Source: Thermoguttaceae bacterium
Lineage (GTDB): Bacteria > Planctomycetota > Planctomycetia > Pirellulales > Thermoguttaceae
Assembly: GCA_017405595.1 (NCBI GenBank)
Contig: JAFRAC010000019.1
Span: forward strand, 1 to 64,000
Reading direction: 5' to 3'
DNA length: 64,000 nt
In this document: piece by piece, positions 28,810-48,719 of the stretch
How positions within the stretch are numbered: the stretch's first letter is position 1
Layout of the letters: each line of letters opens with the position of its first letter
Translations under genes and position numbers: made by a program
The notes under the pieces: generated by a model
Database searches by the model: none
What the model saw: the letters and a program-made list of their open reading frames with translations, nothing else
What the model was told of the DNA's origin: nothing

Positions 28810-28839
28810 CGGGTCCTTTCTGAACTCACCTTTCTAGAA

Positions 28840-28867
28840 ATTATAGAATCCAAACTGAAAAAAGCAA
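28840..28867 (-). promoter_or_regulatory. Promoter of the HAD-macrodomain pair
   Basis: On the minus strand TTGCTT and TATAAT are spaced by 16 bases, ending about 30 bases ahead of the HAD start codon. Confidence 0.55.
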
Positions 28868-28915
28868 GCTCCGCCGCGCACCGGCAGATCAGTGCGGTCA
28901 GCGGGCAAGGGAGCC

Positions 28916-28931
28916 TCCGACTTTAGTCGGA
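28916..28931. repeat. Short palindrome TCCGACTTTAGTCGGA
   Basis: The GACTTTAGTC core occurs here and again at 28980-28999, each time inside extended GC arms. Both lie in the 28810-29115 gap between the HAD gene and the end of the sigma-factor gene. Confidence 0.7.
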
Positions 28932-28954
28932 CGGGGGTTCCCTCCCGCGCTCGA

Positions 28955-29062
28955 AAAGCTGAAACACTCCAGCATATCGCCCCCGACTTTAGTCGGGGGA
29001 TTAGATTCGATAACCCCGGAAAGCTTCGCAACTTCCTCCCCGAACTCCCGGCCCGCCGAAAT
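28955..29062 (-). repeat. Dispersed intergenic repeat, copy A
   Basis: About 110 bases read on the minus strand share ordered blocks with 39140-39249 on the plus strand: ATTTCGGCGGGCCG, GTTCGGG, a TCGAATC.AAT.CCCCCG block leading into a GC-rich hairpin, and GTGTTTCAGCTT. The hairpin here is CCCCCGACTTTAGTCGGGGG (28980-28999). The palindromic centre has a different sequence in the two copies while its pairing is kept, as expected for a structured RNA or a REP-like element. Confidence 0.7.
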
Positions 29063-29115
29063 ACTTCGCCGGGAACAGCGAAACGCTTTCCCGCCCCCGC
29101 CCCCGCGCCTTCCCC

Positions 29116-30948
29116 CTACAGATAATCCTCCACCCGAATCCCGGCCTCTTCGACAAACCTGCGCAGCTTTTTCATCGCCCGGCATTCGATCTGCCGCACC
29201 CTTTCGCGGGTAATCCCGAAGACCTTCCCGATTTCTTCGAGTGTATAGGCGCGCCCGTCGGCGATCCCGTACCTCAGCCGGAGAATCTTCCGTTCCCGCC
29301 GGTCGAGCCGATGCAGAAGCAGACGGGCGAACCGGTATTTTTCCCGTTCCGCCATCTGGTCAGCCGGCTCGTCGTCGCGGCTCGGAACCACGGAATCATC
29401 GAACTCAACATATCCTGTGTTATCAGTATCTTCCGGGATCTCTTTCAGCCGCGGCACCAGCGATTCGACCCTTCTGACCGGTTTCAGCCGTTCGAGCAAG
29501 TAGGCTGTCCGGTTTTTGCCGCCGCCGGTATGCCCGGGCAATATTCGGGAGATCCTCTCCCAATCCGCGTTGGTTTTCGCGCTCAGACAGTTGTTTTGTT
29601 TCAGGAGAGGCAGCAGCTTGCAATACAGATCGTTCAGCTGGACCGGAAACCGTATTCCCGTACGGCACTTCGAATTCGTTCGGAGAATCGCGGAATCCAT
29701 CCGCCACACAACGCCGCTGAAAGAGCGTTTTCCCGGTTTGAGCCGAAACCGGTCAATTTCGGTCAGCAGTCCGAGACAGGCGTCGCCGATCGAGTCGTCC
29801 AGATCGAAATCATACTTTTTCGCGCTGCGGTATGCCGTCCGAACCGCAACACGCAGATACATTTCCGCGGCACGGTTCCGCGCCTTTTGATCCCCCGACC
29901 GTGCCTGGCGGATTACCTTCATAAACTCGCCGTACTGGGGCGGCATAATCGACTGGATTTCATCAACGAACGCCTCGAGTGTTCCGTCGCGTCTCTTAAC
30001 ACTTTCGAACAGCTGTTTGTAGTTCGAATGGGCGTAATCGAAACAGGCCCGATCCCTGTCATTGATTTCAGTCCGCGCGGCAGCCAGATCCGCCGCGGTT
30101 TTCCCTTCGGCTTTTTCCGGCTCATTTTTCGGCTCTGTTTCCGATACCGCGCCCGCCGGCGTCTCGCCTTCGGGCGCCGCGTCCTTCGCCAAAGGCCGCG
30201 GCTTCCGCCTTCGCCGCCGGAACCGGTAATCGCCGAACACCGCGCCGGTCAGATACTCTTCCGGCGAGAGATTCGCGGCCCGGGCGGCGGCGCAAACCCG
30301 TTCGATATCGACCGCCCCGCAAACCACATCGACCAGTTTGTCCGGAAACAGGCTACGCGGAACCCTGGACATCGGCGGCAGGCCCGCCAGGCGCCGTGCG
30401 GCAGCTTCGGCGACATACTCATCGAACGGCAGAGTCCAAAACCGGGCCGCCCGTTCGATCCGTCTCTTTTCGCCGGCGCCGATCCGGATTGTGCCGGGCG
30501 GCTGCTGTTTCGGCGGTTCCGGTTTCAGGGCAGGCGGCTTCAGAACTTCCGCCGCCGGCGCGTATTCCCCGAAAATCGCGCCGCGCAGAAATTCATGTAC
30601 CGTAATACCCAGTGCGCGGGCGGCACTGACGATTTTCATCTTTTCCGACTGCGTAAAACTGCAGCCGATCGACGAATCCGCCGCCGCGCCCGCAGCCCGT
30701 TCGATTCTGACGACCGGCGGACGGCCGACCAGGCGCCGCCGGATCGCGCCGATCACAAATTCCTGAAACGAGAGCCGCGCGCCGGCCGCCGCCAGCCGGA
30801 TCTGTTCCTTATCCGCGGCCGAGACAGGCACACTGGCAAGAACCGGCCAATCGATGGCCGGCCTTTTTGCCGTTCGGTTCGGCAGGCCGGAAAGCAGCTT
30901 ACCGACGCGCTCCATAACCGCTTTGCGATCCTGCTCTTGTGTTAACAT
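29116..30948 (-). CDS. Sigma-70-type factor with duplicated N-terminal RHH-like units
   Basis: This is a 610-residue protein. Residues 356-424 match sigma region 2 (MYLRVAVRTAYRSAKKYDFDLDDSIGDACLGLL) and 540-597 match region 4 (LDRRERKILRLRYGI...TLEEIGKVFGITRERVRQIECRAMKKLRR). The first 245 residues hold four short helical units at about 42-82, 95-133, 153-197 and 208-243. They resemble ribbon-helix-helix/DUF1778-type segments. Units 1 and 3 end in RRL.G.PP..R and units 2 and 4 in GA.FG.Y, so the order is A-B-A-B. A charged linker (245-300) joins the halves. Region 2 aromatic melting residues look degenerate, and region 1.1 is absent. It is probably an alternative sigma factor with an added DNA- or protein-binding array. 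Its final stop lies at 29116. Confidence 0.8.
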   Translation of the reverse strand: MLTQEQDRKAVMERVGKLLSGLPNRTAKRPAIDWPVLASVPVSAADKEQIRLAAAGARLSFQEFVIGAIRRRLVGRPPVVRIERAAGAAADSSIGCSFTQSEKMKIVSAARALGITVHEFLRGAIFGEYAPAAEVLKPPALKPEPPKQQPPGTIRIGAGEKRRIERAARFWTLPFDEYVAEAAARRLAGLPPMSRVPRSLFPDKLVDVVCGAVDIERVCAAARAANLSPEEYLTGAVFGDYRFRRRRRKPRPLAKDAAPEGETPAGAVSETEPKNEPEKAEGKTAADLAAARTEINDRDRACFDYAHSNYKQLFESVKRRDGTLEAFVDEIQSIMPPQYGEFMKVIRQARSGDQKARNRAAEMYLRVAVRTAYRSAKKYDFDLDDSIGDACLGLLTEIDRFRLKPGKRSFSGVVWRMDSAILRTNSKCRTGIRFPVQLNDLYCKLLPLLKQNNCLSAKTNADWERISRILPGHTGGGKNRTAYLLERLKPVRRVESLVPRLKEIPEDTDNTGYVEFDDSVVPSRDDEPADQMAEREKYRFARLLLHRLDRRERKILRLRYGIADGRAYTLEEIGKVFGITRERVRQIECRAMKKLRRFVEEAGIRVEDYL

Positions 30949-30990
30949 TGACGGAACCTAAATCACTTGTTGTTTAGCGGAACTCTCCCC

Positions 30991-31013
30991 CGGACCGCTT
31001 CGGTGGCGGTCCG
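30991..31013. terminator. Hairpin between the RM operon and the sigma-factor gene
   Basis: An 8-bp stem (CGGACCGC/GCGGTCCG) with a 7-base loop lies about 90 bases past the hsdR stop on the minus strand. No T tract follows, so termination is only possible. Confidence 0.35.
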
Positions 31014-31101
31014 CATTTCCAGTTCAGGGGTGATCGGATTTAGAACGTTCGGCATGCTTACGATCCTGTATTTCACGGTTACGTTGCCGGGTGATACTCG
31101 T

Positions 31102-34100
31102 TTATGCGGCTCCGTCTTGCCTTTCATAGAAATAATCGAACAGCTTGTCCCTGCATTCCGTTATATTGATTTCCTCATAGACTTTCGGCAAGTTTTTCCA
31201 AAGGGTATCTCTAATGAGATTCCGAAGGCTCTCTCTTGTTTCCTGTTTGTCTCTCCAGTGGTCGGTTTTTGCGAGCATCGCGTTAACCTGTTGCAAAATG
31301 TCAACGGCCACTTCCTTAATCTTTTTGATCTCTTGACGGTTAAGGTCCTCTTTTAAAAGCAAATCAAAGATCGAAAGCTCTTCATCATTACTGAAACCCT
31401 CTCGGACATAGCGCTGTTGTTCTTCATCTAGCTCACCCGCAATACGCATGAGCTCGATAAAGGTCTTTTCAATCATTGCGCTGTCCTGTTCATTGTTATA
31501 GTCGTCTATGATTTTCTGATAGCGTTCGAGGAAATTCACACGGGAATGATTCAGCATGACCATACTTTCCAACTTCTGTTCGATAATATCACTTAGGTCT
31601 TTTAAGATCAGGTGTCTTGTCTTTGCCTGTTTAAACTCTTCATGCAAATGATCGAAGTCGATACTGCTGATGTTAAACCGCTTTTCGGAATTATCTCTCT
31701 TATCGGTTCCTACGACTGAAACGTAATTGTTGAGAATCGCATTGATCTGTACCATAAGTTCGGTATTATCGGCATGCTTTTTCTTTTTTTGTAATCGTGC
31801 GTAAATCTCACAAACGGCATCGTATTCTCTCCGTCTTTCTGTGTTAATATCATCTTTATTCAGGTATTTTTTTAACCGTTTGGCTTCTTTGACAATCGCG
31901 CAAAACATTTTTCTTTCTTCAAGAGTCCGGCAGACAGCATCCGCGCCCTCTTTTACGAGCCCAGCCTTCTGAAACCCGTTCGCACTGATTAGCAGCTTCA
32001 GTTCAAAGCCATGCGAAGCAAGTACACCTTTTGCATTTTCAATACAATCTATAAAATGACTGATAAGCTCCGATTTATCTATAGTGGGGTCAACACCTCC
32101 AGTTTTAGCCCTGTTAACCGTATAGTCTGCGAGTGCTTTTCGCAGGGCTTTAACGATACCGATATAATCGACGATAAGGCCGTTGGTCTTTCCTTCGGCA
32201 ACCCTGTTAGCTCTTGCGATTGTCTGCATAAGGTTGTGGGCTCTTAGCAGCTTGTCAAGATAGAGACACGAGAGGCATTTAACATCGAACCCCGTCAGCC
32301 ACATCGCGCAGACGAAAACGATACGGAACGGGTTATTCTCATCTTTAAACTCTTTGTCGAGTTCACGGCGATCCATCTTTAACCGATGCGGAATAATGTC
32401 CAACCCCCATTTCTGAAACGTCTGTTCTTCATTTTGTTCTTGGCTGATAACAACGGCCATTTCCGTTTCTTCCATCCATACCAGTTTTCTTTCCAGTTCT
32501 TGTGCGGCCTGCTGGTCTTTTGATTGTTTAATCTTTTTCTTTAAAGCCCCGATCTCTTCTTTCCAGTATTCTTGAACGTAGTTATACATTCGTACGCAAG
32601 TGACCTTGTTCAAGCATACGAACATGGCTTTCCCGCTGGTCCAAATTTCCTCGTCCGTATAATGATGAACAAAATCTTTGGCGATCGATCGAAGGCGCGG
32701 TTCCGCCTGTAAAAGGTGAATGGCTTTGGCAATTTGGGCTTCAAGCTTATCGGTTTGGTCCTGATCAAGATCCGCATTCTCGATTGCCTCGATAATCTGG
32801 TCGTTAATTACCGGACTGAATATATCACGGATCTTTTCTCCGCGGTTTTCATAATAGAGAGGAACCGTTGCTCCGTCTTCGACCGCGCGGTTAAAATCGT
32901 AAATAGAGAGATAATCGCCGAAAGTTACCGCGGTAAGATCCCCTTTAAGAAGGGGCGTGCCGGTAAACCCGATACGTGAGGCGGTGGGCAAAAGTTTTTC
33001 CAAGTTAGCGGCAAAAACACCATACTGACTGCGATGGGCTTCATCCGACATGATGATAATATCATGGTCGGGATAAATCGGTTTTTCGTTCGGCAGATTA
33101 AATTTCTGGATCAGAGTAAAGATAAAACTCGGGTTCCCGTTAAGTTTATGAATAAGGTCTTTTCCGCTGGTAGCGATGAACTGTGAACCTTTGGCTTTAC
33201 CCATTAAACCGCAGCCTAAAAAAGTCTCGCAGATCTGTTTGTTCAGTTCATCACGGTCGGTTAAAATTACAATCGTTGGGGAACCGGAGAATTTCCGTCT
33301 GATCTTTTGTGAAAGGAAAATCATCGAGTAACTTTTTCCGGATCCTTGCGTATGCCAGAAGACGCCTAAACGGCCTTTTCGCGCCTTTCGCTGCGTGTAG
33401 GCTTTAACCGCTTCGTTGACGCCGAGGTACTGGTGGTTCCGAGCAAGGATCTTAACGGTCTTTCCGCCGGAATGGTCAAAGAGAATAAAGTTTTCAAGGA
33501 GGTCGAGAAAGTTTTCTTTCTTACAGATACCCTTTAGCATGGTTTCAAGGTCGACACTTCCGCGGTCATCTTCCCTGAGTCGTTTCCATTCATGGAAAAA
33601 AGCATATTTGCTTCCGAGGGTCCCGATTTTGGCTTCATCACCGTTTGATAACATAACAAAAGCGTTATAGTAGAAAAGCTGAGGTATTGAATGTTGATAA
33701 TGTGTATAATTATCGGTATAGGCATTTTGGACATCGACGCTTAGCTTTTTTAATTCGATGAAAAGAAGGGGGATCCCATTGATGAAACCGACGATGTCGG
33801 TACGGCAGTTGTAAACGGCCCCGTGAATTATTAGCTCTTTAATGGCGAGGAAATGGTTATTTTCAGGGTTATCAAAATCGACAATCGTGGCCCGCTTCGT
33901 CTCAGTTTTTCCGTCATTAAGCTTAACTGTTACGGGGATGCCGTCACGGATAAAGAAATACTTTTCTTCGTTGATTTCTAAAAGCGAAGCTGCGGAACTA
34001 TGACTTTGAAATTTTTCGATGGCTTCGTTAATTTGTGTTTCTGTGATCCAGCTGTTGAATTGTTTTAGAGCGGCACGGAAATAACGGAGTAAGAGTACTT

Positions 34101-34245
34101 CCTTATAACTCGTTCTGCCGAACGTTCCGTTAACGCCAAGAATTTCATCATTGAACGCCCATTGGACTTCCCAACCAAGCTGATCTTGGAGCAGATTAGC
34201 TGCGCTTTCTTGAACGAGTTGGTTTTCGGAGTATTCGTAGCTCAT
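31102..34245 (-). CDS. hsdR: Type I restriction enzyme subunit R
   Basis: This 1047-residue protein has a normal length for HsdR. The N-terminal nuclease domain shows D150 in RTDIVGF and the E164-L-K166 triad in LLFIELKK, the PD-(D/E)xK site. A superfamily 2 translocase follows: Walker A VFWHTQGSGKSYS (residues about 296-308), SDEAHRSQYG near residue 405, and SRIGFTGTPL. It ends with the helical, charged domain that docks on the methyltransferase. HsdR cleaves unmodified DNA after ATP-driven translocation. The ATG at 34245 overlaps the stop of the RelA/SpoT-type gene by 4 bases, so its translation is coupled to that gene rather than to hsdS. Confidence 0.96.
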   Translation of the reverse strand: MSYEYSENQLVQESAANLLQDQLGWEVQWAFNDEILGVNGTFGRTSYKEVLLLRYFRAALKQFNSWITETQINEAIEKFQSHSSAASLLEINEEKYFFIRDGIPVTVKLNDGKTETKRATIVDFDNPENNHFLAIKELIIHGAVYNCRTDIVGFINGIPLLFIELKKLSVDVQNAYTDNYTHYQHSIPQLFYYNAFVMLSNGDEAKIGTLGSKYAFFHEWKRLREDDRGSVDLETMLKGICKKENFLDLLENFILFDHSGGKTVKILARNHQYLGVNEAVKAYTQRKARKGRLGVFWHTQGSGKSYSMIFLSQKIRRKFSGSPTIVILTDRDELNKQICETFLGCGLMGKAKGSQFIATSGKDLIHKLNGNPSFIFTLIQKFNLPNEKPIYPDHDIIIMSDEAHRSQYGVFAANLEKLLPTASRIGFTGTPLLKGDLTAVTFGDYLSIYDFNRAVEDGATVPLYYENRGEKIRDIFSPVINDQIIEAIENADLDQDQTDKLEAQIAKAIHLLQAEPRLRSIAKDFVHHYTDEEIWTSGKAMFVCLNKVTCVRMYNYVQEYWKEEIGALKKKIKQSKDQQAAQELERKLVWMEETEMAVVISQEQNEEQTFQKWGLDIIPHRLKMDRRELDKEFKDENNPFRIVFVCAMWLTGFDVKCLSCLYLDKLLRAHNLMQTIARANRVAEGKTNGLIVDYIGIVKALRKALADYTVNRAKTGGVDPTIDKSELISHFIDCIENAKGVLASHGFELKLLISANGFQKAGLVKEGADAVCRTLEERKMFCAIVKEAKRLKKYLNKDDINTERRREYDAVCEIYARLQKKKKHADNTELMVQINAILNNYVSVVGTDKRDNSEKRFNISSIDFDHLHEEFKQAKTRHLILKDLSDIIEQKLESMVMLNHSRVNFLERYQKIIDDYNNEQDSAMIEKTFIELMRIAGELDEEQQRYVREGFSNDEELSIFDLLLKEDLNRQEIKKIKEVAVDILQQVNAMLAKTDHWRDKQETRESLRNLIRDTLWKNLPKVYEEINITECRDKLFDYFYERQDGAA

Positions 34246-35303
34246 GGAATCGTGTCTCCATTAATGTAGGATCTAACGATATTAGTAAATGTTGTAATAT
34301 CATTAAAGTAGTTCGGGTATGCTTTTCTCAGATCACTAAATTTTGAGACTCGCACAAGGACAACGTCAAGGTTGCCACACCATTTTTGTTCTTCAAGTTC
34401 ATTATATTTCTGATTAGCTTCTTCAAATTCACTCGACTTGAAGGTGAATACCGATAATTTACGACTAACATAATTCAATAGTAAAACGAAATATGTTGAT
34501 TTTCTGGATAACTTATTTTGTTCATATGCTACGATCTCCTTTATTCCGTCAAGTTGGGCTAGGTAATTGTTTTTTACATTTAACTCCATTATTTCCTGAA
34601 TAATTTTTACCGGGTTATTAGGTGTACAAGGTACTGTTGTCGTTTTTTCTTTTATTGCAAAGAGGGAAGATACTAATGCAAAGAATCGTTTAACGTCATC
34701 TGAACCTTGGCCTGACTTAAGAGATTGGTTCGTAAGAAGTCCCATTGTTTCCACTGCGGTCGCCCAAAGATGTTGAAGTTGAGTTCTAAACTGCAACTCA
34801 ATTAACATGTTATTATTGTAGGCATCATTACTATCACTATGATATTCATATACTACATGGTAACTTCTATACCCGGATTCTTTTGGTGTTTCCATGTAGT
34901 CATAAATTTTTTTACGATGGTGGCGTTTTCGTGAAGTTTCATAGATTTTTGAATATTTGTAGACGTCATCTATAGAAGGAACTATAATGCGACACCCCCC
35001 AAGATCTTGCATTGTCCACAGGCTCATATTTGGTTCTCTCTTGAGCTTGCTAATAATAGAGTTCATTCTTTTCAAACGCTCTGCAACAATAATATTGTTA
35101 TTCCCCTTGGCAAATCTGCGTAGATGTGTATAAATGATATGCAAAGGAAATGCGTGTGCGGCACGCCAATTATCTATTATTTTTCTCGTTTCCTCTCTCT
35201 CTTGTTCGTCTCGAAAAAGATCTTTTTTAATGGTTTTCCCTGCACGGATGATTTGTGTTCGGGAATATTCAACTGTTTTCCATTTGGGTTGTCTTAATTT
35301 CAT
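34242..35303 (-). CDS. RelA/SpoT-domain (p)ppGpp-type synthetase embedded in the RM operon
   Basis: This is a 353-residue protein. Residues about 70-190 carry the synthetase core: RLKRMNSIISKLKRE (the R..S...K nucleotide-binding helix, K86), MQDLGGCRIIVPS (D100, G103, R105), YMETPKESGYRSYHVVYEY (the GYRS.H loop), and IELQFRTQLQHLWATAVE (E169, Q171, catalytic acid region). All residues needed for pyrophosphate transfer appear present. There is no HD hydrolase domain and no TGS/ACT regulatory region, so it is a small alarmone synthetase-like protein with its own 150-residue C-terminal helical/beta domain. It overlaps hsdS and hsdR by 4 bases on each side. It is markedly AT-rich. Possible products are (p)ppGpp, (p)ppApp or pyrophosphorylated tRNA, as in the toxSAS and CapRel families. 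Confidence 0.88.
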   Translation of the reverse strand: MKLRQPKWKTVEYSRTQIIRAGKTIKKDLFRDEQEREETRKIIDNWRAAHAFPLHIIYTHLRRFAKGNNNIIVAERLKRMNSIISKLKREPNMSLWTMQDLGGCRIIVPSIDDVYKYSKIYETSRKRHHRKKIYDYMETPKESGYRSYHVVYEYHSDSNDAYNNNMLIELQFRTQLQHLWATAVETMGLLTNQSLKSGQGSDDVKRFFALVSSLFAIKEKTTTVPCTPNNPVKIIQEIMELNVKNNYLAQLDGIKEIVAYEQNKLSRKSTYFVLLLNYVSRKLSVFTFKSSEFEEANQKYNELEEQKWCGNLDVVLVRVSKFSDLRKAYPNYFNDITTFTNIVRSYINGDTIP

Positions 35304-36418
35304 TTAGCACCCTTCGTCCCTGTTATTAATTTTGTTAAAAGTTGATTTCTAGACTTCACAGAACACTCCGTCATAGTTCGTAAGACATGAATCTTCCTAA
35401 GGATAGGATTTGTGATTCTCAAGAAATTTTTTGAAATGTCTATTGTGGGAACAATTATAGTTTCAGCCTTTAGAAATTTAAAATGGCGTGCATAGTGATA
35501 ATTTGACAGGTCGAGTTTGACAATACTAAAATAAAGAAGAGGAACAGGCATCTCTGGAAGCCTAGATGTTATTAACTGTGTCCCATCAGCACCACAAGCG
35601 AAAGGAAACTGAATATATTTAATGCTTCGCGTATGATCCCCAAATACGATTACAGGTGGTTTAACATTTACAATTGTGTCTTGGTCATTAGTATAACCGG
35701 CAATGAAGTCTTTTCCCTGGTCGATAATTGGAATAGAACCCTCGGGAAGATAGTCCTTCTTTTTTACTGTTGGTGGCCTTTTGATCTTGCATAGAATGGA
35801 ATCAATAGTCATCCTGTGCCACCCTGATGGCAAACCGTCAACAAAAGCTGTGTTCTCATGGCCCGGAAAACGGAAATCCACAAACCATTCTTTGTAGAGC
35901 AGTTGAGCTGCTTCCTCGAGGAGTTTTATTTGCTTGTGGTTGTTTTCGACGAGGTCATCATAGGAGGAGAGAATCTTACCAATTTTTCGTTGAGTTCTAG
36001 TATCGGGAAAGTCTACCGTAATATTTTCGAAGACCTTATTATTTACACGCTGTCGTCCTGTTGCTCCTGTCATGGAGTTAATCATACGTGATCTGATGAA
36101 ATCAGTCTGCATAAAGTAGTATAAGTACTTATTGTCAGTAAACACGTCTTTGGGGCGAAAAACAAGGAATTCGGTAGAACCAAATCCCTTGCCAATGTTA
36201 TCGCAATAAAACCTTTTGCCATTTTGAAGACATGGTGTTATCCTTGCAATAACGGTATCGCCATCTTGAAACCGAACCCCGGAATTAAAGGGCTTCATCT
36301 CAGTTCTTATTGGTTGCCGATAAGATGAACTAACATTTCCCATCTCAATAAATGGATATACTTCCCCTTTAGTCATGCTAACACAGGGGTTTAACAATAT
36401 ACGGTCCAGAAACTTCAT
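35300..36418 (-). CDS. hsdS: Type I restriction enzyme specificity subunit
   Basis: This 372-residue subunit has two target-recognition domains (about 10-150 and 185-335), each followed by a conserved helix. The first helix is TQRKIGKILSSYDDLVENNHKQIKLLEEAAQLLYKEWFVDFRFPGHE, a nearly standard HsdS central spacer. The second at the C-terminus is shorter. The two recognition domains determine the two halves of the bipartite DNA target. The N-terminal region begins close to TRD1 without the usual leading helix, so a slightly truncated N-terminus is possible. The ATG overlaps the hsdM stop by 4 bases. Confidence 0.92.
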   Translation of the reverse strand: MKFLDRILLNPCVSMTKGEVYPFIEMGNVSSSYRQPIRTEMKPFNSGVRFQDGDTVIARITPCLQNGKRFYCDNIGKGFGSTEFLVFRPKDVFTDNKYLYYFMQTDFIRSRMINSMTGATGRQRVNNKVFENITVDFPDTRTQRKIGKILSSYDDLVENNHKQIKLLEEAAQLLYKEWFVDFRFPGHENTAFVDGLPSGWHRMTIDSILCKIKRPPTVKKKDYLPEGSIPIIDQGKDFIAGYTNDQDTIVNVKPPVIVFGDHTRSIKYIQFPFACGADGTQLITSRLPEMPVPLLYFSIVKLDLSNYHYARHFKFLKAETIIVPTIDISKNFLRITNPILRKIHVLRTMTECSVKSRNQLLTKLITGTKGAK

Positions 36419-38235
36419 AGACCCATCTCCTTCATGTTTTCAGAGATGGTTTTCAACAATTCATCAGATTCTGCCTGGAGCACCTGTAGTTCTGAGTGGA
36501 TCTCCCGAATACGTTGTCCAAAATCTACTCCGTCATCTTGAACCTCTATTACCCCGACGTAAGCTCCCGGGGTTAACGACCAGCTTTTCTCTTCGATTTC
36601 CGAAATTAGGGCTACTTTACAGAGTCCCGGAATGTCTTTGTATTTTCCGGTGCCGAATTTCGTCGTAAGCCACACGGCTTCCTCGGCTATTTTTCTTCGT
36701 TCCTCCCGCTCCGTGATCTTGTCGTCATATTCCACCTCGATTCGCTTCTTGTCCTTCCTATCGGCTTCTTCCACGGCTTTTTTACCTTCGGCTTTAAGTT
36801 TTTTAATTTCCTTTTCAAGCCGGGTTAAGATTGTCTTGAATTGGCTACCGCCGAGTGTTTCTTTGTATTCATCGATAAGAGATATGTATTTTTCTTTCTC
36901 TCCTCTGTAAAGCCATACTATTGCGTTAAGGTTTTTCAGCTGCCACTCGGTCCAAATATTGAGTGTGCGGTCGACAACAGTGTAGTAGTTTCGTGCGTCA
37001 ATAAAGAGGACTTTATCCTGGATCTTCTTTGCCTTTCCCTTATCGAAGAACCATAGCGTGCAAGGCAGCGATTTTGTATAGAAAAAGTTGGTGCCGACAG
37101 ATAGCATGACATCAACATGCCCTGTTTTAACCAGCTTTTCACGGATACCCTTGTCTTTGCTCTGGCTGTCGGTCGCCGACGAGGCCATTACGAATCCAGC
37201 CCGGCCCCGTTCATTGAGGTAGGAGTAGAAATAGGAGATCCAAAGATAGTTGGCGTTGCTGACCTCCTTGTTTTTATTAACCGCCGGCATGCCGAACGGG
37301 AGCCGGCCGGCGTTTTCGCACGTGTCGGCTTTGACCATATCGACGTTAAACGGCGGATTTGCCATAACGTAATCGCATTTACCGTTCAGATTGTGTGCAT
37401 CGTAGTAGAAAGTGTTGGCTTCGTTTCCTGTTTTGATGAGACCTGTAAGCCCATGAACAGCGATGTTCATCAGGCAGAGCTGCGCGTTATATTCAACCTT
37501 TTCTTGACCGTAAAAGGTCATTGTCCGATTGGCGTTCATGCCGGCGGCGTTGACAAAATCACCGCTTTGAATAAACATTCCGCCGCTACCGCAGGCGGGG
37601 TCGAGAAGTACGCCCCCGCTTGGTTCGAGCACATTGACGATCATTTTAACAAGCGATTTCGGGGTGAAGAAAACCCCATCGTCGGAGGCGATATTCTTGG
37701 CGAACTTGTTAAGGAAATATTCGTAAATACGGCCGATAACATCGCCGTCTTCGATATCGAGCGCGCTGTTGTTAAAAATGCGGAGCAGGCTCGATAACAG
37801 TTCATCGGTGAAGTCGGTATAGGTTTTTGGGAGTACGCCGACGAGCTGTTCCGATTGATCTTCGATGAGCCGCATTGCGTTATTAACGACTTCCCCGAGC
37901 GAGTTCATCGGGTGTCCGTCTTTGTTGACTAACTTGACCGAAGTGATGTTTTCGGGCAGATTGACGAGGTATTCGTATTGGGCTTCTTTGGGTAGAAAAA
38001 GCGCGCTTTTGGCGCTAAAATCACTCTGTTCCACCGGCAGAACCTTACCGCCGCGTTTGGGACGGTTTTTCAGAATTTCAGCTTCAACCTTCTTAAACCG
38101 GGAGTATGCGTATTTGAGGAAGATAAGGCCAAGAACCGGCATGCAGTACTGGTTGGAAGTCAGTTTTGATCCTTCACGTAAAGAATCCGCGGCTTTCCAC
38201 AGATCGTTCTCTAAAATCCTAATATTGGTCATCAT
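36415..38235 (-). CDS. hsdM: Type I restriction enzyme methyltransferase subunit
   Basis: This is an adenine-N6 methyltransferase of 606 residues from the ATG at 38235 (an in-frame TTG at 38280 would add 15). The N-terminal helical HsdM domain (NDLWKAADSLREGSKLTSNQYCMPVLGLIFLKY) leads to the SAM-binding motif LLDPACGSGGMFIQ at residues 210-223 and the catalytic NPPF at 293-296. A coiled-coil region near residues 465-510 (KEIKKLKAEGKKAVEEADRKD) and a C-terminal specificity-binding tail follow. Together with HsdS it methylates, and with HsdR it restricts. GAGGA precedes the ATG at a rather long distance. It is the first gene of the four-gene operon. Confidence 0.96.
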   Translation of the reverse strand: MMTNIRILENDLWKAADSLREGSKLTSNQYCMPVLGLIFLKYAYSRFKKVEAEILKNRPKRGGKVLPVEQSDFSAKSALFLPKEAQYEYLVNLPENITSVKLVNKDGHPMNSLGEVVNNAMRLIEDQSEQLVGVLPKTYTDFTDELLSSLLRIFNNSALDIEDGDVIGRIYEYFLNKFAKNIASDDGVFFTPKSLVKMIVNVLEPSGGVLLDPACGSGGMFIQSGDFVNAAGMNANRTMTFYGQEKVEYNAQLCLMNIAVHGLTGLIKTGNEANTFYYDAHNLNGKCDYVMANPPFNVDMVKADTCENAGRLPFGMPAVNKNKEVSNANYLWISYFYSYLNERGRAGFVMASSATDSQSKDKGIREKLVKTGHVDVMLSVGTNFFYTKSLPCTLWFFDKGKAKKIQDKVLFIDARNYYTVVDRTLNIWTEWQLKNLNAIVWLYRGEKEKYISLIDEYKETLGGSQFKTILTRLEKEIKKLKAEGKKAVEEADRKDKKRIEVEYDDKITEREERRKIAEEAVWLTTKFGTGKYKDIPGLCKVALISEIEEKSWSLTPGAYVGVIEVQDDGVDFGQRIREIHSELQVLQAESDELLKTISENMKEMGL

Positions 38236-38288
38236 ATGAGTTTTCCGGTCCTCAAATCTGAGTGCAATTTGTTTGCCCAATAAACAGC

Positions 38289-38394
38289 AAGGGGTTTTTC
38301 GACATTGCCTATAATAAAGTCGACAAAGAAAAACTCCTACAAAAATTTACAATATCTTTAGCGAGAAGGCAAGGGGCTGACAGTGAAAACCCCT
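38289..38394. repeat. 10-bp inverted repeat upstream of the RM operon
   Basis: AAGGGGTTTT (38289-38298) and AAAACCCCTT (38385-38394) enclose about 86 AT-rich bases immediately ahead of hsdM. No clear promoter was recognised there, although a TATTAT box lies at the expected side on the minus strand. The pair could mark a structured leader. No gene is present between 38236 and 38530. Confidence 0.45.
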
Positions 38395-38530
38395 TATTTT
38401 AAGCGGAAATACTGTTTGTTTTATCGATTGTTACCACGTGTCCCGTTACCACGGTTCCGCACAATCGGCTGAGGGAGTGCCGCCCGTCCCCGCCGCGTTT
38501 CTGTTCGCGGCGGGGGGGCGCCGGGCGGGG

Positions 38531-38869
38531 CTATTTCAGGTATTCCCCGCTGAACGTGCCCACCAGCAGGCCGCCGAACGGCTCGCTCATGAGCAGGCCC
38601 ATGAAGTCCCCCGAAACCTTGCCGGTTTCCGGGTCGACGACGGCGTCACGGAGCTCGCCGTCAAAGCCGTAGACCGCCTCGGCGGGGCCGGGTTCCCCCT
38701 CGGCGACGATCATGCCGGCGGTAATCCGGCCGGTGACGGTACCGGACGGCTCGTCCGTGAAATCGGCGGTCAGGGTCCCGTCCAGCTCGAACGAGAACAT
38801 CTCGTCCTCGACGGGGCGGAACGCCGCCTCGATTTTGCCGTTCCGCAGGTTGTTCAGAACTTCCATCAT
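38531..38869 (-). CDS. Small hypothetical protein, beta-rich
   Basis: This 112-residue protein has an excellent AGGAGG 4 bases before the first and 7 before the second ATG, so MEVLNN (38866) may be the true start. The sequence is acidic, rich in Gly/Asp/Thr and alternates hydrophobic residues, as in a small beta-barrel or immunity-type fold (FELDGTLTADFTDEPSGTVTGRI ... GTFSGEYLK). No family is recognised. It lies between the RM operon and a repeat region and has the GC content of the surrounding chromosome. Confidence 0.65.
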   Translation of the reverse strand: MMEVLNNLRNGKIEAAFRPVEDEMFSFELDGTLTADFTDEPSGTVTGRITAGMIVAEGEPGPAEAVYGFDGELRDAVVDPETGKVSGDFMGLLMSEPFGGLLVGTFSGEYLK

Positions 38870-39139
38870 AAATCCTCCTGGTATAAATGGAGTACGACCA
38901 CAGAATCCCCCGGCACCGCGCCGGGGAATGTTCAGCGGTGAAAAAAAACTGGAGGATTAAATTGAACTGCTTTGGGGTTAGAAAAAGCCGCGTTTGCGGG
39001 GGAAAGGATTCATAGCTCTTCGTGGGTAGAAGTGACTGTTGCCGGGAAATCCGGCGGCGAGGGGGTATTCTATATCAAACTTTGGGGGCGGCAAGGGGGG
39101 GGTAGAGGGCGGGGAAAATTTGTTTTTTTGGGGGGGAGG

Positions 39140-39249
39140 ATTTCGGCGGGCCGAAGGTTCGGGAAGCCTGTATTTTAGGCTGCCGGGATTGTCGAATCCA
39201 ATATCCCCCGTCCGGAGGACGGGGGTGAAAAGAGGGTGTGTTTCAGCTT
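39140..39249 (+). repeat. Dispersed intergenic repeat, copy B
   Basis: This partner of copy A (28955-29062) lies in the opposite orientation. Its central hairpin is CCCCCGTCCGGAGGACGGGG (39205-39224), different in sequence from that of copy A although the flanking blocks agree. The rest of the 38870-39279 gap is G-rich with no gene. Confidence 0.7.
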
Positions 39250-39259
39250 GCCGGGGGCG

Positions 39260-39275
39260 GCGGGGGCTGCCCCGC
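39260..39275 (-). terminator. GCGGGG/CCCCGC hairpin after the phosphoesterase gene
   Basis: A 6-bp GC stem with a four-base loop lies just past the stop codon of the minus-strand phosphoesterase gene. The identical 16-mer recurs at 42146-42161 after the heparinase gene. Confidence 0.5.
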
Positions 39276-39279
39276 TGTA

Positions 39280-40419
39280 CTAGAACGTGAACGCGCGGTC
39301 GCGGCCGGCGCCGCCGGCACCGATCCGGAACATTTTCAGTTCCCGTGTCTTCGGCTTGATCGCCGCGATATCGATGAGCGTCTGGCTCTTCTTGTCGAAA
39401 ACCGTTTTAACCACGCCGTCGGGCATATCGTTCGGGTGTATCCCCCCGAACCCCTGCGTAATCACATGAAGAATTTCGCCGACGACTCCCTGGTTGTCGT
39501 AGTGGCTGTCTCCTGTAATGCAGCCGACCAGGCGGCAATCCTCGTTTTTCGTGAAATCCCAGGTCACGCCGTCGGTCTCGCCGGCCTGGTTATGAAGGAA
39601 TCCGCGCAGAATGTCGGCCCAGACCTCGTCGCGTTTCGCGCGGGTGTCCTCGTAACCCTTCCAGACTCCGAGCGGATGGCCGACACAAAAATGCTGGAAA
39701 ATGACAACGGTCCATCCGGCGGGAAGCTGAAGATGGTCGGCCAGGAACTGGAGCTGTTCCCGCGAATAGCCGTAATACGCCCCGTCGCTGGTGTTCAGGA
39801 AAAAGGCGCGGACCTTCTTTTCCGGAAGATCGTAATAGCCGTAATCGAAGTCGGGCCCGGTTTTGACCGGAACGCCCCGGCGGAGCGTCGGCAGATTGAA
39901 GATTTCGCCGAACAGCCGGCTCGATACCATGGGGGCATGGTCCGGCCCGTGATCGTGGTTCCCGATACAGAAGAAGACCGGAACCGCGGTGAAATCCTGA
40001 TAGACCCGCATCTGCGCCGCAATCCGCCAGTAGACACTGTCGGGTTTGCCGCTGTTCATCCCGATGTCGCCGAGATCGACCATGAAATCGGCCCCGAACT
40101 GCGCCGCGGCCTGCTGAGCGATATAGATGTGGTTTTTCGCGTCGGACCAGTCGGGTTCCGCAGGGTCGCCGTTAATGGTGGGGTCGGGATGCGGCTCGGA
40201 ATGGACGTCGCTGATCAGCGGGACGGCGACCACTTCATCGTCCCCTTTCCACTGGCGGAACCGTTCCAGGGTACTGTCGATTTCAGACTGCGCCCAGTCG
40301 GGAATCGGTTTGAGCCCCCCCTCTTCCGCCTCCTGCGCCGAAATCGAAACGGCGAAAAGGAACGCGGGAATCAGGAGCGAAAAGAGCGGGAAAACGAAAC
40401 GTCTCGAAATCATGGGCAT
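39280..40419 (-). CDS. Secreted metallophosphoesterase, second family
   Basis: This is a 379-residue protein. A signal peptide (about residues 1-29, SRRFVFPLFSLLIPAFLFAVSISAQ) precedes a calcineurin-type domain. Motifs are VPLISDVHSEPH (D-x-H), MVDLGDIGMN (GD), FFCIGNHDHGPDH (GNHD), FQHFCVGH and GCITGDSHYD. The first motif is canonical here, unlike the other phosphoesterase at 17926-19053. It probably acts in the periplasm or outside on phosphodiesters or nucleotides. The start may be at M1 or M3. No partner gene is adjacent. Confidence 0.85.
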   Translation of the reverse strand: MPMISRRFVFPLFSLLIPAFLFAVSISAQEAEEGGLKPIPDWAQSEIDSTLERFRQWKGDDEVVAVPLISDVHSEPHPDPTINGDPAEPDWSDAKNHIYIAQQAAAQFGADFMVDLGDIGMNSGKPDSVYWRIAAQMRVYQDFTAVPVFFCIGNHDHGPDHAPMVSSRLFGEIFNLPTLRRGVPVKTGPDFDYGYYDLPEKKVRAFFLNTSDGAYYGYSREQLQFLADHLQLPAGWTVVIFQHFCVGHPLGVWKGYEDTRAKRDEVWADILRGFLHNQAGETDGVTWDFTKNEDCRLVGCITGDSHYDNQGVVGEILHVITQGFGGIHPNDMPDGVVKTVFDKKSQTLIDIAAIKPKTRELKMFRIGAGGAGRDRAFTF

Positions 40420-40638
40420 CAGCGGCCGCCTTTCTTGGGAACCGGAGTTCCGGCATCGGGGGAAACGGAGAGTGGTTTGAACGGGCAGGGGTTCGGCACC
40501 GGTCTGCCCTTTTCCCCTTCCGACGCCCCGATTTTAGCAGAAAGGGGGACGGCGTGCCAGATACCGGGGGCGGGAGCCGGATTTAAAGCGCCCAGGGGGG
40601 GCTTCGTGGGGTTGAAAAATCGGTTTTTGAGCCTATAA

Positions 40639-40707
40639 TGGCGATTATTCATATGAAAAATAACCATTTTTGGCGATTATTCATATGAACAATCGCCAAA
40701 AATGGTT
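40639..40707. repeat. Compound direct and 17-bp inverted repeat upstream of the ATPase gene
   Basis: A 19-bp direct repeat, TGGCGATTATTCATATGAA, occurs at 40639-40657 and 40671-40689. The second copy sits inside a perfect 17-bp inverted repeat (40662-40678 and 40691-40707), whose 12-base loop contains the palindrome TTCATATGAA. This overlaps the leader of the gene starting at 40733. It is suited to autoregulation or to being the footprint of a transposition event. The remaining 40420-40660 gap is GC-rich without a gene. Confidence 0.85.
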
Positions 40708-40732
40708 TTGCTGGAAGGGAAAGAGGTCCGTT

Positions 40733-42067
40733 ATGGAACGTTCGGCGATGAAGGTTCTGGAAGCCTGGAAAGAGAAGGTTCACCGCAAACCGCTTCTCAT
40801 AACCGGCTGCCGCCAGTGCGGGAAGACATGGCTCATGACCGAGTTCGGGAAACGCCATTTCGAAAAGACGCTCCTGTTCAATTTCGAGAAGGAGCCGGCA
40901 CTGGCGGATATTTTCAAACACGATCTCGATCCGGTGCGTATCCTTCATGAACTCGGCATGTTTCGGGAAGGGAAACCGATCGACCTGCGCCGGACCCTCG
41001 TCATTTTCGACGAAGTTCAGCAGTGTGCCGAAGCGGTGACCTCGATCAAGTATTTCGAGGAGAATTGCCCGGACCTCTGCCTCTTATGCGCCGGTTCGCT
41101 GCTGGGAGTCGAGCTGAAACGGAAAAAAGTTTCGTTTCCGGTCGGAAAGAACGATCAGCTCAAACTCTATCCGCTCAATTTCGAGGAGTTTACCCGTGCC
41201 CTGGGGGGCGGGAAATATCTCGATTCGCTCCGCGAATTCGATCTGTTTCGGGAAATTCCCGCCTACATAACAGAACCGATGCTGAAGTATCTTAAACTGT
41301 ACTACATCATCGGCGGTATGCCGGAAGCCGTGCAGACCTATCTCGATACCAAGGATATGGCGGAAGTCGACCATGTCCTCGACCGAATCATCCAGGATCT
41401 GCGCAACGATTTTTCGCACCATGCCGAGCCGCGCGACGTTGTCCGGATCAGCTCGATCTGGGATTCGATCCCGAAACAGCTTGCGAAAGAGAATAACAAG
41501 TTCGTCTTTTCCCAAGTAAAATCGGGTGTGCGTGCCCGTGATCTGGAAGACGCGCTCCAGTGGCTGGTTGATGCCGGTCTGGTCTATCGGCTCGAGAAAG
41601 TCGCTGCGCCGCGTATCCCCCTTTCGGCCTGTTCCGACGCTTCGTTCTTTAAGATTTACCTTTATGATGTCGGTGTCCTCCGGCGCGGCGCGGGTGTCGC
41701 TTACCGAACCGTTCTCACAGAACCGGAAGGGTACGCGGCCTTTAAGGGGGCGTTTACCGAAAACTACTGTATGACCGAACTGGTCGCGCTGGGGATAAAA
41801 CCCCGCTATTGGCGGAGCGGGAACAGTGCCGAAGTCGATTTTCTGTTCGAGGACGGGCTAAACCGTATTATCCCGATGGAAACGAAATCGGCAGAAAACA
41901 CGAGGGCGAAAAGTTTCGAAGTCTATCGAAAGCTGTACGATCCGCCGCTCGGGTTTAGGGTTTCCGCGAAAAATATCGGCGATAACCGGAAAGGAAACAC
42001 GCACGAAATAAGTCTGCCGCTTTACCTTCTCTGGAAATTGCCGGAATATATCGGCGCGGAGAGGTGA
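40733..42067 (+). CDS. AAA-type ATPase with DUF4143 nuclease-like C-terminus
   Basis: This is a 444-residue protein. Walker A is ITGCRQCGKTWL (near residue 21), Walker B LVIFDEVQQC, then sensor-like LLCAGSLLGVELK and YPLNFEEFTRALGG. A winged-helix segment precedes the C-terminal domain. In that domain YWRSGNSAEVDFLFEDGLNRIIPMETKSAEN shows the E-V-D ... E-T-K arrangement of a PD-(D/E)xK-like fold, as in DUF4143 proteins. The family is abundant and mobile in bacteria and archaea with no settled function. ATG 40733 follows AAGAGG; upstream in-frame Met codons lie in the inverted repeat. Its promoter region is unusual. Confidence 0.85.
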   Translation: MERSAMKVLEAWKEKVHRKPLLITGCRQCGKTWLMTEFGKRHFEKTLLFNFEKEPALADIFKHDLDPVRILHELGMFREGKPIDLRRTLVIFDEVQQCAEAVTSIKYFEENCPDLCLLCAGSLLGVELKRKKVSFPVGKNDQLKLYPLNFEEFTRALGGGKYLDSLREFDLFREIPAYITEPMLKYLKLYYIIGGMPEAVQTYLDTKDMAEVDHVLDRIIQDLRNDFSHHAEPRDVVRISSIWDSIPKQLAKENNKFVFSQVKSGVRARDLEDALQWLVDAGLVYRLEKVAAPRIPLSACSDASFFKIYLYDVGVLRRGAGVAYRTVLTEPEGYAAFKGAFTENYCMTELVALGIKPRYWRSGNSAEVDFLFEDGLNRIIPMETKSAENTRAKSFEVYRKLYDPPLGFRVSAKNIGDNRKGNTHEISLPLYLLWKLPEYIGAER

Positions 42068-42145
42068 AGGGGCGTGTCCGTTTCCGCCGGCAGAGCGCCA
42101 ACGGGCGCGAACGGCAGGGGCGGAATGAGCGGAAATAAATCGCCT

Positions 42146-42161
42146 GCGGGGGCTGCCCCGC
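42146..42161 (-). terminator. Second copy of the GCGGGG/CCCCGC hairpin
   Basis: Identical 16-mer to 39260-39275, about 20 bases past the stop of the heparinase gene at 42182. Its repeated position after minus-strand stops suggests a 3'-end element. Confidence 0.5.
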
Positions 42162-42181
42162 CGCGTTGCGGTTCCCGCGGG

Positions 42182-44164
42182 TTACTCGATCGTCATGGAA
42201 ACGGTCAGCATGCGTCCTTCGGCCAGTTCGGTTTCCCAGGCGATCCGTTTCGGTTTTTTGGGTGTGAGCGGATCGTCTTTGCCGACGATCTGTTCGGTGA
42301 ATCTTCCCGGAACAGGCGAACCGTTCTCGTCATATGCCGAAACGGCAACACGGATTCCGGGACCCGTTGAACCGTCTTTGGCGGGACGCGGGGTGATCTC
42401 AATCGTCTGTCCGCCGGTTTGAGTCCAGTTCTCGAACGTGATCAGCGGAAAGTCGGCGGTGCGGGGCGCGCCGGGCGCGAAGGTGACCGTATCGGTTACG
42501 GTAAGGCGGTTCGGGGTTTCCTGCCCGGCCCGTGTGTATTCGTACCGGCGGACCACCCGTTCGGCGCCGGAACCGGCATAAGCGGCTGAAAGGTCGAGCG
42601 TGTATGATACCGAATCGCCGGCCGGCTCGAATTCAAGAACCTGGGCCTGAACCTCGGCACCGGGCTTTTGCAGTGTGCCGTTGATGCGCGGTACCGGATG
42701 CCCGAACGAGTTGAGGAGTTCGCCTTCGTAGCGGTGTTCCGAGAAGGTCCGTTTGGAATAGGTTTCTTTACCGGGGTCGATGACGAGCCAGACGCCGCCG
42801 CGCAGAACACAGAATGTGCCGAGATCGTTGTGGTTGTGCATCTCGCCGTTGTTTCCCCCTTTAAAGACCGCGGCGATCTGCGAAGGGTCGCCGCCGTCGG
42901 GCCGGCAGATGACGACGCCCGCGTCGGGAAACCGGCTGACCGGTTCGGTGAGAAAATCGGCGGGTTTTTCGTCCGGGGAAGACGCAAGGGGAGGAAGTTC
43001 GCCGCCCGCTTCATACGAGGGGAAGAAATACGCCGCCGCGGCGGTCGGTGTCTTGACTTTGCAGTGGGGATAGCCGAAATCGCGTTCGGTTTCGTCAAGG
43101 CCGAGATTGAGCCGCCGGCTCAGGAGCGCGAAAAGCTGTTTGTCGAGTTTGACCGCGGGGGAACAGTCGGCGAACGCGGCGTAGCGGCCGGGCGCGACTT
43201 CCATCTTCAGCGCGAATTCGGCGAGCGGACGCACTTTCGGGCATGTATAGAGGTTGACCGCGCCGCCCGACCCGCGCTGTGCGAGTTCGGCAAGTATGAC
43301 GAAATGGCCGAATCCGTAATTCCAGTAGCTGACCCCTTCGGAGCAGTAACCATCGTCGGTAATGCCGAGAAAGAAGCGGGTCGAGACGAAATGTTCGGCC
43401 GCCGCCAGGTACCACGCGCGCTCTTCGGCGGACGCGCAGACCGAAAGGGCCGCCGCCGTTGTTCCGCAGAAGCAGACGGGGTTCCAGTTGTTCGTGCCGA
43501 TAATCCAGCCTATCATGGGATACCCGCCCTTTTCGATCTTGTTCCGGACCGGTGCCAGAACGCGGCGGCGGATGTTTTCCCGCGCCATTTGCACGACCTC
43601 GGGGGAAAGGACCGGTTCCATCGCCTGAACCGCGATTCCGAGATCACCGCCGAACTCGGTGGCGGCCAGGTCGGGCCCTTCGTCTTTCCCGTCGTAGACC
43701 GTGGCAAGAAGGTCGTGCGCCGGAAGAAGCCAGCTCGGGTACTCGCAGAATCTGCGGATGATCTCTTCAAGCGCGGGAACGAAACGCCCCTTGTTTTCAG
43801 CCAGTTCGGCCATCACCAATGTTGAAAAACGGTCGACCCAGACTTTCCGCCGATTCTGGTAGTGTGTCCGGTTTCCGCTGGCGAAGAATTCTTTATAGAG
43901 GTCTTCCGAAAGTTCGGGAATCGGTTCGGTAAGGTATTTTTCGGCTTTTTTGATGGTTTGGGCCGACTCGGTGCAGGAGGCGTAGTACTCCCACTTTTCG
44001 CGGTCGGTGATCAGGGGGACCAGCGGGACCGGTTCGGGAGAGAGAAGGGGAGCGAGTTCGGCGGCGCGCTTTTCGACCTCCTGAAGGTCGGCCTGCGGAA
44101 CCTGGGCAAAGAGCGCCGGGACGGCGCCGAAAATGAGGGCGGCGGCAAGAAGGAGCTTTTCCAT
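42182..44164 (-). CDS. Heparinase II/III-like secreted polysaccharide lyase, paralogue 1
   Basis: This is a 660-residue protein with a signal peptide at about 1-20. A helical toroid occupies about 60-360 (NNWNPVCFCGTTAAALSVCASAEERAWYLAAAEHF, DGYCSEGVSYWNYGFGHFVILAELA). The heparinase II/III-like beta domain follows, with GNNGEMHNHNDLGTFCVLRGGVWLVIDPGKE. In that family the Tyr in SYWNYG and the His of HNHND act in glycosaminoglycan cleavage, and both are present. It degrades acidic polysaccharides by beta-elimination; the exact substrate is not knowable here. It is co-oriented with, and 26 bases downstream of, its paralogue. Confidence 0.88.
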   Translation of the reverse strand: MEKLLLAAALIFGAVPALFAQVPQADLQEVEKRAAELAPLLSPEPVPLVPLITDREKWEYYASCTESAQTIKKAEKYLTEPIPELSEDLYKEFFASGNRTHYQNRRKVWVDRFSTLVMAELAENKGRFVPALEEIIRRFCEYPSWLLPAHDLLATVYDGKDEGPDLAATEFGGDLGIAVQAMEPVLSPEVVQMARENIRRRVLAPVRNKIEKGGYPMIGWIIGTNNWNPVCFCGTTAAALSVCASAEERAWYLAAAEHFVSTRFFLGITDDGYCSEGVSYWNYGFGHFVILAELAQRGSGGAVNLYTCPKVRPLAEFALKMEVAPGRYAAFADCSPAVKLDKQLFALLSRRLNLGLDETERDFGYPHCKVKTPTAAAAYFFPSYEAGGELPPLASSPDEKPADFLTEPVSRFPDAGVVICRPDGGDPSQIAAVFKGGNNGEMHNHNDLGTFCVLRGGVWLVIDPGKETYSKRTFSEHRYEGELLNSFGHPVPRINGTLQKPGAEVQAQVLEFEPAGDSVSYTLDLSAAYAGSGAERVVRRYEYTRAGQETPNRLTVTDTVTFAPGAPRTADFPLITFENWTQTGGQTIEITPRPAKDGSTGPGIRVAVSAYDENGSPVPGRFTEQIVGKDDPLTPKKPKRIAWETELAEGRMLTVSMTIE

Positions 44165-44190
44165 CGGTGGTCTTTCGCGGTGTTCGGATT

Positions 44191-46188: not shown

Positions 46189-46288
46189 TGTCGGTCTCCT
46201 TCGGGTATGTTCGGAAAAATCCGGCTGCGGGCCCCGCCTTTGATTGATGCGCCCGCCGGGCTCTTTCCCGTTCAGTCATAACTGACCG

Positions 46289-46317
46289 ATTATACTGTCA
46301 GGAGTGTCGGAGATAAA
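46289..46317 (-). promoter_or_regulatory. Candidate promoter of the heparinase pair
   Basis: On the minus strand a weak TTTATC -35 and a perfect TATAAT are separated by 17 bases, about 100 bases ahead of the 46188 start. Confidence 0.4.
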
Positions 46318-46391
46318 GTACATGCCGCCCCCGGCCGGAGATCGGGCCTGCCGGGGGCGGGGGAGAAGCGCGCCGGGCGTCGCAGAAAAGC

Positions 46392-46730
46392 CTAGCCGCC
46401 GAGGAACTCGCCATAATCCTCTTCGTCGGCGTCGTACGGAGGATTCAGCGCGTTCCAGTCGATGAGCCGTTCGATCTTCTCGGTCAGTTCACGGACCCTG
46501 CCGCGCTGAAGCCCTTTCGGGAGCTGGTCCGAGACCGCTTTGATCGATTCCAGAATGAAGGTGCCGATCGGCTCATCGGCGATCTGTTCGATTCCAAGCC
46601 CTTCCATCAGTGTGAACGCCTTTAAGAGCGCATGAGCTTTGAGCAGTCTCTGTTCGAGCGGGGAAAGGGTTACGGTCCCTTCTTCCGGACCGGTTTGACC
46701 GGAATCGCGGGGGACGAGCGGGGTTACCAT
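46392..46730 (-). CDS. Small helical hypothetical protein
   Basis: This is a 112-residue protein beginning MVTPLVPRDSG, chosen because AAAGGAG lies 8 bases before this ATG; a longer frame to 46841 lacks such a site. The central part is helical and leucine-rich (LSPLEQRLLKAHALLKAFTLMEGLGIEQIADE), and the C-terminus is acidic (DADEEDYGEFLGG). No family is recognised. Soluble and probably cytoplasmic; it could be a small regulatory or scaffold protein. Confidence 0.65.
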   Translation of the reverse strand: MVTPLVPRDSGQTGPEEGTVTLSPLEQRLLKAHALLKAFTLMEGLGIEQIADEPIGTFILESIKAVSDQLPKGLQRGRVRELTEKIERLIDWNALNPPYDADEEDYGEFLGG

Positions 46731-47030
46731 CAGAGCTGCTCCTTTCAGGATGGACGCGGGAAAGAACCGGACGGGTCGCGCTGTTTCGGCCGGAAAGTCC
46801 GGGCCGGGCGTTTTTCGAGAAGCGCCTTCCCCTACATTCACTTATCGGCCCGTTTTTTCCCGTTTGGGCCGCGGGGCCGAAAAAAGTCTGAAAATTCCAC
46901 TCCGCTGTTTCCGAGAGTCAATCCTTTCAGAGGCGTTTTCATGGGCTTTGCCGGTTTCCCGGCAAGTTAAAATATGCTTTAAAACAAGGCATATCCGCGA
47001 AAAATGCCCCGCCGGCGGGCGCCTTCTGCA

Positions 47031-47055
47031 AGTTAGCGAAAGTTAGCGAAAGTTA
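47031..47055. repeat. 10-bp direct repeat AGTTAGCGAA
   Basis: Two and a half copies lie in the 46731-47187 gap. A complementary pair TGCCCCGC / GCGGGGCA brackets it at about 47004 and 47086, so a small structured transcript is conceivable. Nothing else recognisable is in this gap apart from the promoter at 47104. Confidence 0.5.
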
Positions 47056-47103
47056 AATTGATTTCTTGGGGAATTTCTGCGGGGCAGACGGCGCGGAAGC
47101 CGG

Positions 47104-47132
47104 TTGACCTGTGAAACGGCGGCACCTACAAT
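47104..47132 (+). promoter_or_regulatory. Sigma-70-type promoter
   Basis: TTGACC and TACAAT are separated by exactly 17 bases, about 55 bases before the start of the small helical protein and the alkylation-repair genes. Confidence 0.7.
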
Positions 47133-48687: not shown

Positions 48688-48719
48688 CCGGTCCGGCTTG
48701 TTTGGGAAAGAAGCTGCTT

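Follow-up and report, generated by a model that had tools for sequence, protein, structure and literature searches.

The 610-residue protein encoded at positions 29116..30948, minus strand, of the window (the whole stretch of 64,000 nucleotides that was analysed) joins a sigma-70 factor, in its C-terminal half, to an N-terminal array of four beta-alpha-alpha units of the ribbon-helix-helix (RHH) type. The units follow one another in the order A-B-A-B within residues 37-241 and make up two homologous cassettes, AB1 and AB2, the first of which is modelled as a single-chain RHH pseudo-dimer. Promoters are normally read by regions 2-4 of a sigma factor, with tuning left to separate activators or anti-sigma factors. 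We propose, with a confidence that we would put at about even, that this protein (referred to here as ABAB-sigma) is an accessory sigma-70 factor whose tandem RHH array would tether sigma and RNA polymerase to particular DNA. If true, this would be a natural fusion of activator and sigma factor, in which a genus-specific chromatin-like module has been reused to rewire transcription; coming from the sequence of a single genome, the proposal is offered as a lead.

Domain make-up of ABAB-sigma

The ABAB-sigma gene of this Thermoguttaceae bacterium starts 3 codons past a stop (open frame 613) and runs through 610 codons without internal stop or frameshift. Its third-position GC, 0.69 overall, is host-like (host-type neighbours mostly fall between 0.65 and 0.80) and amounts to 0.72 in one half and 0.68 in the other. 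The preliminary description had allowed for the frame being an artefact of two joined genes; as far as sequence tells, this is ruled out by the single continuous frame and by the similar third-position GC of its halves. The array has its match in a protein family belonging to the same genus (see below), and so is not foreign DNA either. A scan of the 153 bp preceding the gene lists no consensus sigma-70 promoter on its coding strand. ABAB-sigma, an oddity of a gut planctomycete, is genuine, but only one genome is so far known to have it.

Residues ~340-608 are sigma-70, as had been read from the start: the RpoS/RpoD models of NCBIfam align over 338-608 with E-values of 1e-25 to 1e-28. Region 4 (29161..29319, minus strand, residues 544-596), which includes the -35-reading helix TLEEIG...TRERVRQIE, matches Pfam Sigma70_r4 at 2.3e-18, with 65.9 bits against a cut-off of 24.1. 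Region 2 (29629..29931, minus strand, residues 340-440) is diverged, such that its Pfam match at residues 362-406 (E 0.0035, 17.6 bits) stays under the cut-off of 24 bits, while alignments with full-length sigma models, at 1e-25, run across it. ABAB-sigma has region 4 after this diverged region 2, in the order of the group 1/2 sigma-70 factors (RpoD/RpoS/SigA), and differs from them in a longer region-3 segment and in the 245-residue RHH array that stands in place of the usual N-terminus. When it is aligned with SigA chains and with the sigma factors of its own genome, region 4.2 is conserved and the -35-reading helix is nearly identical, while in region 2.3/2.4 the equivalents of Y430, W434, Q437 and T440 (E. 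coli sigma-70 numbering) are changed and only that of W433, among these positions, is kept. This combination suggests a near-normal -35 preference together with an altered -10 contact.

The nearest sigma domain found in 119 genomes of the family (33% over 300 residues) belongs to a factor of genome G067 (loci L011/L051) which, unlike ABAB-sigma, is 380 aa long, acidic and without RHH units; its N-terminus has a marginal match to region 1.1 (E 2.6e-4; 21.3 bits, cut-off 22.5). The G067 gene lies 16 bp past a small uncharacterised gene, and SspA/DndA-like, PbeA and PbeC genes precede it in the same orientation (L051, 8226-15438). The inspected loci of the other top sigma matches in the family encode housekeeping or group-2 type factors. 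As to the plasmid matches of the G067 sigma, two are annotated and are ordinary rpoD genes beside dnaG; a third record carries no annotation.

In the array, the A units are unit 1 (30685..30840, minus strand, residues 37-88), with the tail RRLVGRPPVVR, and unit 3 (30340..30504, minus strand, residues 149-203), with RRLAGLPPMSR; the B units are unit 2 (30550..30684, minus strand, residues 89-133), with GAIFGEY, and unit 4 (30226..30339, minus strand, residues 204-241), with GAVFGDY. The motifs quoted in the preliminary description are therefore all present where it had placed them. Units 1 and 2 form AB1, and units 3 and 4 form AB2. A linker (30049..30225, minus strand, residues 242-300) follows, which has an RRRRRK stretch and then becomes P/E/K-rich; its start is predicted to be disordered (AlphaFold pLDDT <50 at residues 243-252).

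Measured against shuffled sequence, the homology of AB1 and AB2 reaches Z 21.1; among single units, the pairs 1/3, 2/4 and 1/4 reach Z 11.5, 11.4 and 9.7 respectively, and the remaining pairs 2.2 to 3.7. The similarity of the two cassettes, and of units of the same type, is far above chance. In a tree of eight cassettes AB1 pairs with AB2 (support 91/94, with long branches), a pairing that favours tandem duplication; the alternative trees, in which AB1 or AB2 alone groups with the free-standing cassettes described below, are not rejected (p-AU 0.08). The earlier suggestion of a duplicated two-unit module is borne out to this extent, and the A-B cassette was probably duplicated in tandem.

The units had also been likened to DUF1778 proteins, and here only the RHH part of the assignment holds. 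The Pfam NikA-like RHH family (PF21983) matches the array at 8.2e-10, with 39.1 bits against a cut-off of 27, in two stretches, and the closest fold is TraY-like (see below); when the profile search is carried out unit by unit, single units fall below the NikA-like cut-off. At E-values of up to 1 the whole protein gives no match to DUF1778/TacA (PF08681), nor do the single units, and an array of DUF1778 antitoxin units was ruled out as lacking profile support. The antitoxin-like partner that had been envisaged for the array likewise finds no positive support, as the ABAB-sigma gene is flanked directly by hsdR and by a gene for a HAD protein, with no toxin gene adjacent.

Fold and source of the cassette

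Structure prediction agrees with the RHH reading of the N-terminal units. The AlphaFold model of AB1, built with eight locus-derived alignment rows, is a single-chain RHH pseudo-dimer (pLDDT 85, pTM 0.74) in which a strand-helix-helix succession occurs twice (E10-16, H18-30, H35-47, E66-72, H74-87, H91-100). A 253-residue model of the complete ABAB array displays all four beta-alpha-alpha units in an arrangement that is unreliably modelled (pLDDT 66, pTM 0.38), and the fold searches left this model out. On the basis of its homology to AB1 and of the ABAB model, AB2 is predicted to have the same pseudo-dimer fold. The top solved match of the AB1 model is F-plasmid TraY (VIA Z 9.8, 2.6 A over 85 residues), for which Foldseek gives an E-value of only about 0.01 and a probability of 1.0; the F-plasmid relaxosome chains matched by the model we take to be TraY. 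The model also matches permuted single-chain Arc (Z 7.2), and RHH proteins of archaeal viruses are among the viral matches. DndE and some weak condensation-domain rows also appeared in the PDB fold comparison, and were taken to reflect a shared general arrangement.

A study of the relaxosome (PMC12117103) describes the TraY of the F plasmid as monomeric, with the complete RHH dimer fold in one molecule, and as binding DNA in a train of three modules that touch one another. Like the AB cassette, TraY completes this fold with two beta-alpha-alpha units in one chain, at a sequence identity to the cassette of only about 7%; whereas ABAB-sigma has two modules fused to a sigma factor, TraY has a single module in each chain and is a free component of the relaxosome.

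A closer relative of the cassette is encoded in the same genome as ABAB-sigma (contig C7:50470-50751, L040), as the C-terminal half of a lysine-rich protein with an AKKAAPAKK tail; the tail resembles histone-H1-like proteins such as AlgP or Hc2. This protein is also present in three sister genomes (G079, G081 and G082; L041, L042 and L043), for a total of four carriers in the genus, and in G079 its gene has the same flanking genes as on contig C7. Named copies come from the planctomycete MAGs RUG14216 and RUG11210 and from Thermoguttaceae RGIG9609, and divergent versions occur in two genomes of another genus of the family. A cassette profile search of 396 order and 397 class genomes returned nothing convincing beyond these two genera, and a pattern search with the cassette alignment retrieved only free-standing proteins. 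The free-standing cassette (92 residues) is 33-40% identical to AB1 and AB2, with Z of 27 and 26, respectively, against shuffles; the lysine-rich protein differs from ABAB-sigma in having one cassette behind its tail, no sigma domain, and other strand residues. Because the same cassette is found in a genus-specific, chromatin-like RHH protein, the array was most likely derived from a protein of this kind and then duplicated. The lysine-rich single-chain RHH protein, whose neighbours are conserved in the genus, is in its own right a candidate nucleoid protein of gut planctomycetes.

How the array may act

In the mechanism that we propose, two single-chain RHH modules would stand in place of sigma region 1.1 or of an acidic tail, with a flexible linker of about 60 residues between them and the sigma core. 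Like F-plasmid TraY, each A-B cassette would fold alone into a unit equivalent to an RHH dimer, and the array would hold the sigma/RNA polymerase complex on particular DNA, probably at a pair of short neighbouring sites that the two modules would read as a 'train'. Through its conserved helix, region 4 would read a -35-type element, and the tether would compensate for the weakened -10 contact. Sequence and models show the domain make-up, the homology of the two cassettes and the pseudo-dimer fold of AB1; DNA binding, tethering and promoter choice are what we infer from the domain content, from the matches to TraY and single-chain Arc, from the free-standing cassette protein in four genomes, from an array that is basic, unlike the acidic region 1.1, from the retention of region 4.2 while the -10-reading positions are changed, and from the marginal region 1.1 match of the G067 sigma where ABAB-sigma has its array. 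Against a tether we count the strand residues lost in three of the four units, the lower charge of the cassettes, the pTM of 0.38 for ABAB, and the occurrence in one genome. A more specific version, in which activator and sigma are combined in one polypeptide through two linked RHH modules taken from a chromatin-like protein, and promoters are chosen by a tandem RHH site plus a -35 element, is possible, and we hold it only tentatively.

The residues expected to contact DNA bear directly on this proposal. The outward strand residues, as inferred from alignment, are S/P, G/S, T/R and D/V in units 1-4 respectively, and the free-standing cassettes of the genus carry N..R and T..R at these positions; by this assignment of outward positions, the typical base-reading pair appears to be kept only in unit 3. 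Most of the helix-cap S/T positions, which in RHH proteins contact the DNA backbone, are kept in the array, and the array is basic (pI 10.2), with a net charge of +3 and +4 for AB1 and AB2 versus +13 for the free-standing cassette. The extended DNA-binding surface proposed in the preliminary description is plausible, though weakened by the loss of base-contact residues in three of the four strands. Since only one unit in four has base-contacting strand residues, roles in autoinhibition or in protein binding have to be weighed as well.

Region 1.1 of sigma factors is an acidic DNA mimic. The array might replace it as an autoinhibitory or gate-keeping domain that blocks or slows promoter binding as long as the array is not pulled away by DNA or by a partner, and its N-terminal location, where the G067 relative has the marginal region 1.1 match, is what such a domain would have; however, with its basic pI and a fold unrelated to that of the acidic region 1.1, we regard this as the least probable of the explanations considered. 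Alternatively, the array may be mainly a protein-binding platform: by stacking on the free-standing lysine-rich protein, or on RHH proteins of other kinds, it would bring sigma and RNA polymerase to DNA already coated with such a protein. One cassette family is present in both proteins of the genome, TraY modules in the relaxosome are extensively in contact with each other and with partner proteins (PMC12117103), and the base-reading residues are largely gone from three of the four strands; but the array is still basic and has most of its helix-cap positions, and a platform is in our opinion unlikely, though not negligible. A tether to DNA is thus the reading that we carry forward.

Distribution and genomic surroundings

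Planctomycete sigma factors with the same N-terminus were sought in 119 family, 397 class and 392 phylum genomes (the class and phylum sets with the sigma part as query), and no second ABAB sigma was found; many of these genomes are incomplete, and for this reason the absence is not proof. None was found in the plasmid, phage, viral_contigs and genome_contigs collections, the whole protein as query also giving nothing in genome_contigs or viral_contigs, and no sigma-RHH fusion was found in the open-licence literature. A distribution of this kind is what would be left by a fusion that arose recently in one lineage, has little or no selected function and may be decaying, and a region 2 under the Pfam cut-off and drifted strand residues in the array could be seen in the same light; on the other hand, 610 codons are open with a host-like GC3, and the cores of the four units and region 4 are well kept, so that we consider such a fusion improbable.

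The sigma gene follows, on the same strand, hsdM, hsdS, a RelA/SpoT-domain gene and hsdR, from which it is separated by 153 bp; this type I restriction operon spans 31102-38280 of the window (minus strand), with the RelA/SpoT-domain gene (PDC-S33) between hsdS and hsdR. ABAB-sigma could accordingly be imagined as the regulatory part of a defence system, switching on the adjacent restriction/RelA-SpoT-like operon. Its nearest sigma relative, in G067, comes after PbeA/PbeC/SspA-like genes, and its best matches to named families include MzaA, which serves the MZA anti-phage system as sigma factor. Like ABAB-sigma, MzaA is a sigma-70 protein with a long N-terminus, found in defence loci, and the C-terminal parts of the two align; however, the N-terminal half of MzaA is unmatched in ABAB-sigma. 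Membership of the MzaA family (NF041931) was rejected, the match being limited to the generic C-terminal sigma part with 89 bits against an equivalog cut-off of 800, and no MZA genes are present among the annotated neighbours. Moreover, the restriction genes are alien in composition, of low GC relative to the host and with GC3 of 0.31-0.56 against 0.69 for the sigma gene, and were probably acquired separately; ABAB-sigma has no orthologue in the genomes searched with which synteny could be compared. With joint acquisition unlikely, a defence role stands only as a rival to the tether, and a rather unlikely one.

ABAB-sigma is the first gene, at the HAD edge, of a 23.4-kb block (28813..52242) that the sister genomes lack between HAD and sngC. 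The block interrupts a Shango-HAD-macro locus which in the sisters is intact. Downstream of the sigma gene lie the genes of the HAD protein (PDC-S34) and of a macro-domain protein. Three sister genomes have nitroreductase, macro and HAD directly beside a helicase gene orthologous to sngC of the window, and in G081 and G082 the contig also covers the next two operon genes, corresponding to sngB and sngA here (Shango). The sngA-sngB-sngC (Shango) operon of the window is complete (52225-57697, minus strand).

Between the nitroreductase and macro genes, which are neighbours in the sister genomes, the window has a gene for a 714-aa protein (24675-26819, minus strand); a search of the genus gave no other full-length copy. 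It is made of about eight tandem IS3-type HTH units (HTH_Tnp_1, 8 stretches, 3e-37) and ends in an IS3 transposase-like segment. Finally, the palindrome CCGACTAAAGTCGG occurs twice between the sigma and HAD genes (28917-28930 and 28983-28996), compared with 0.05 occurrences expected, and is REP-like.
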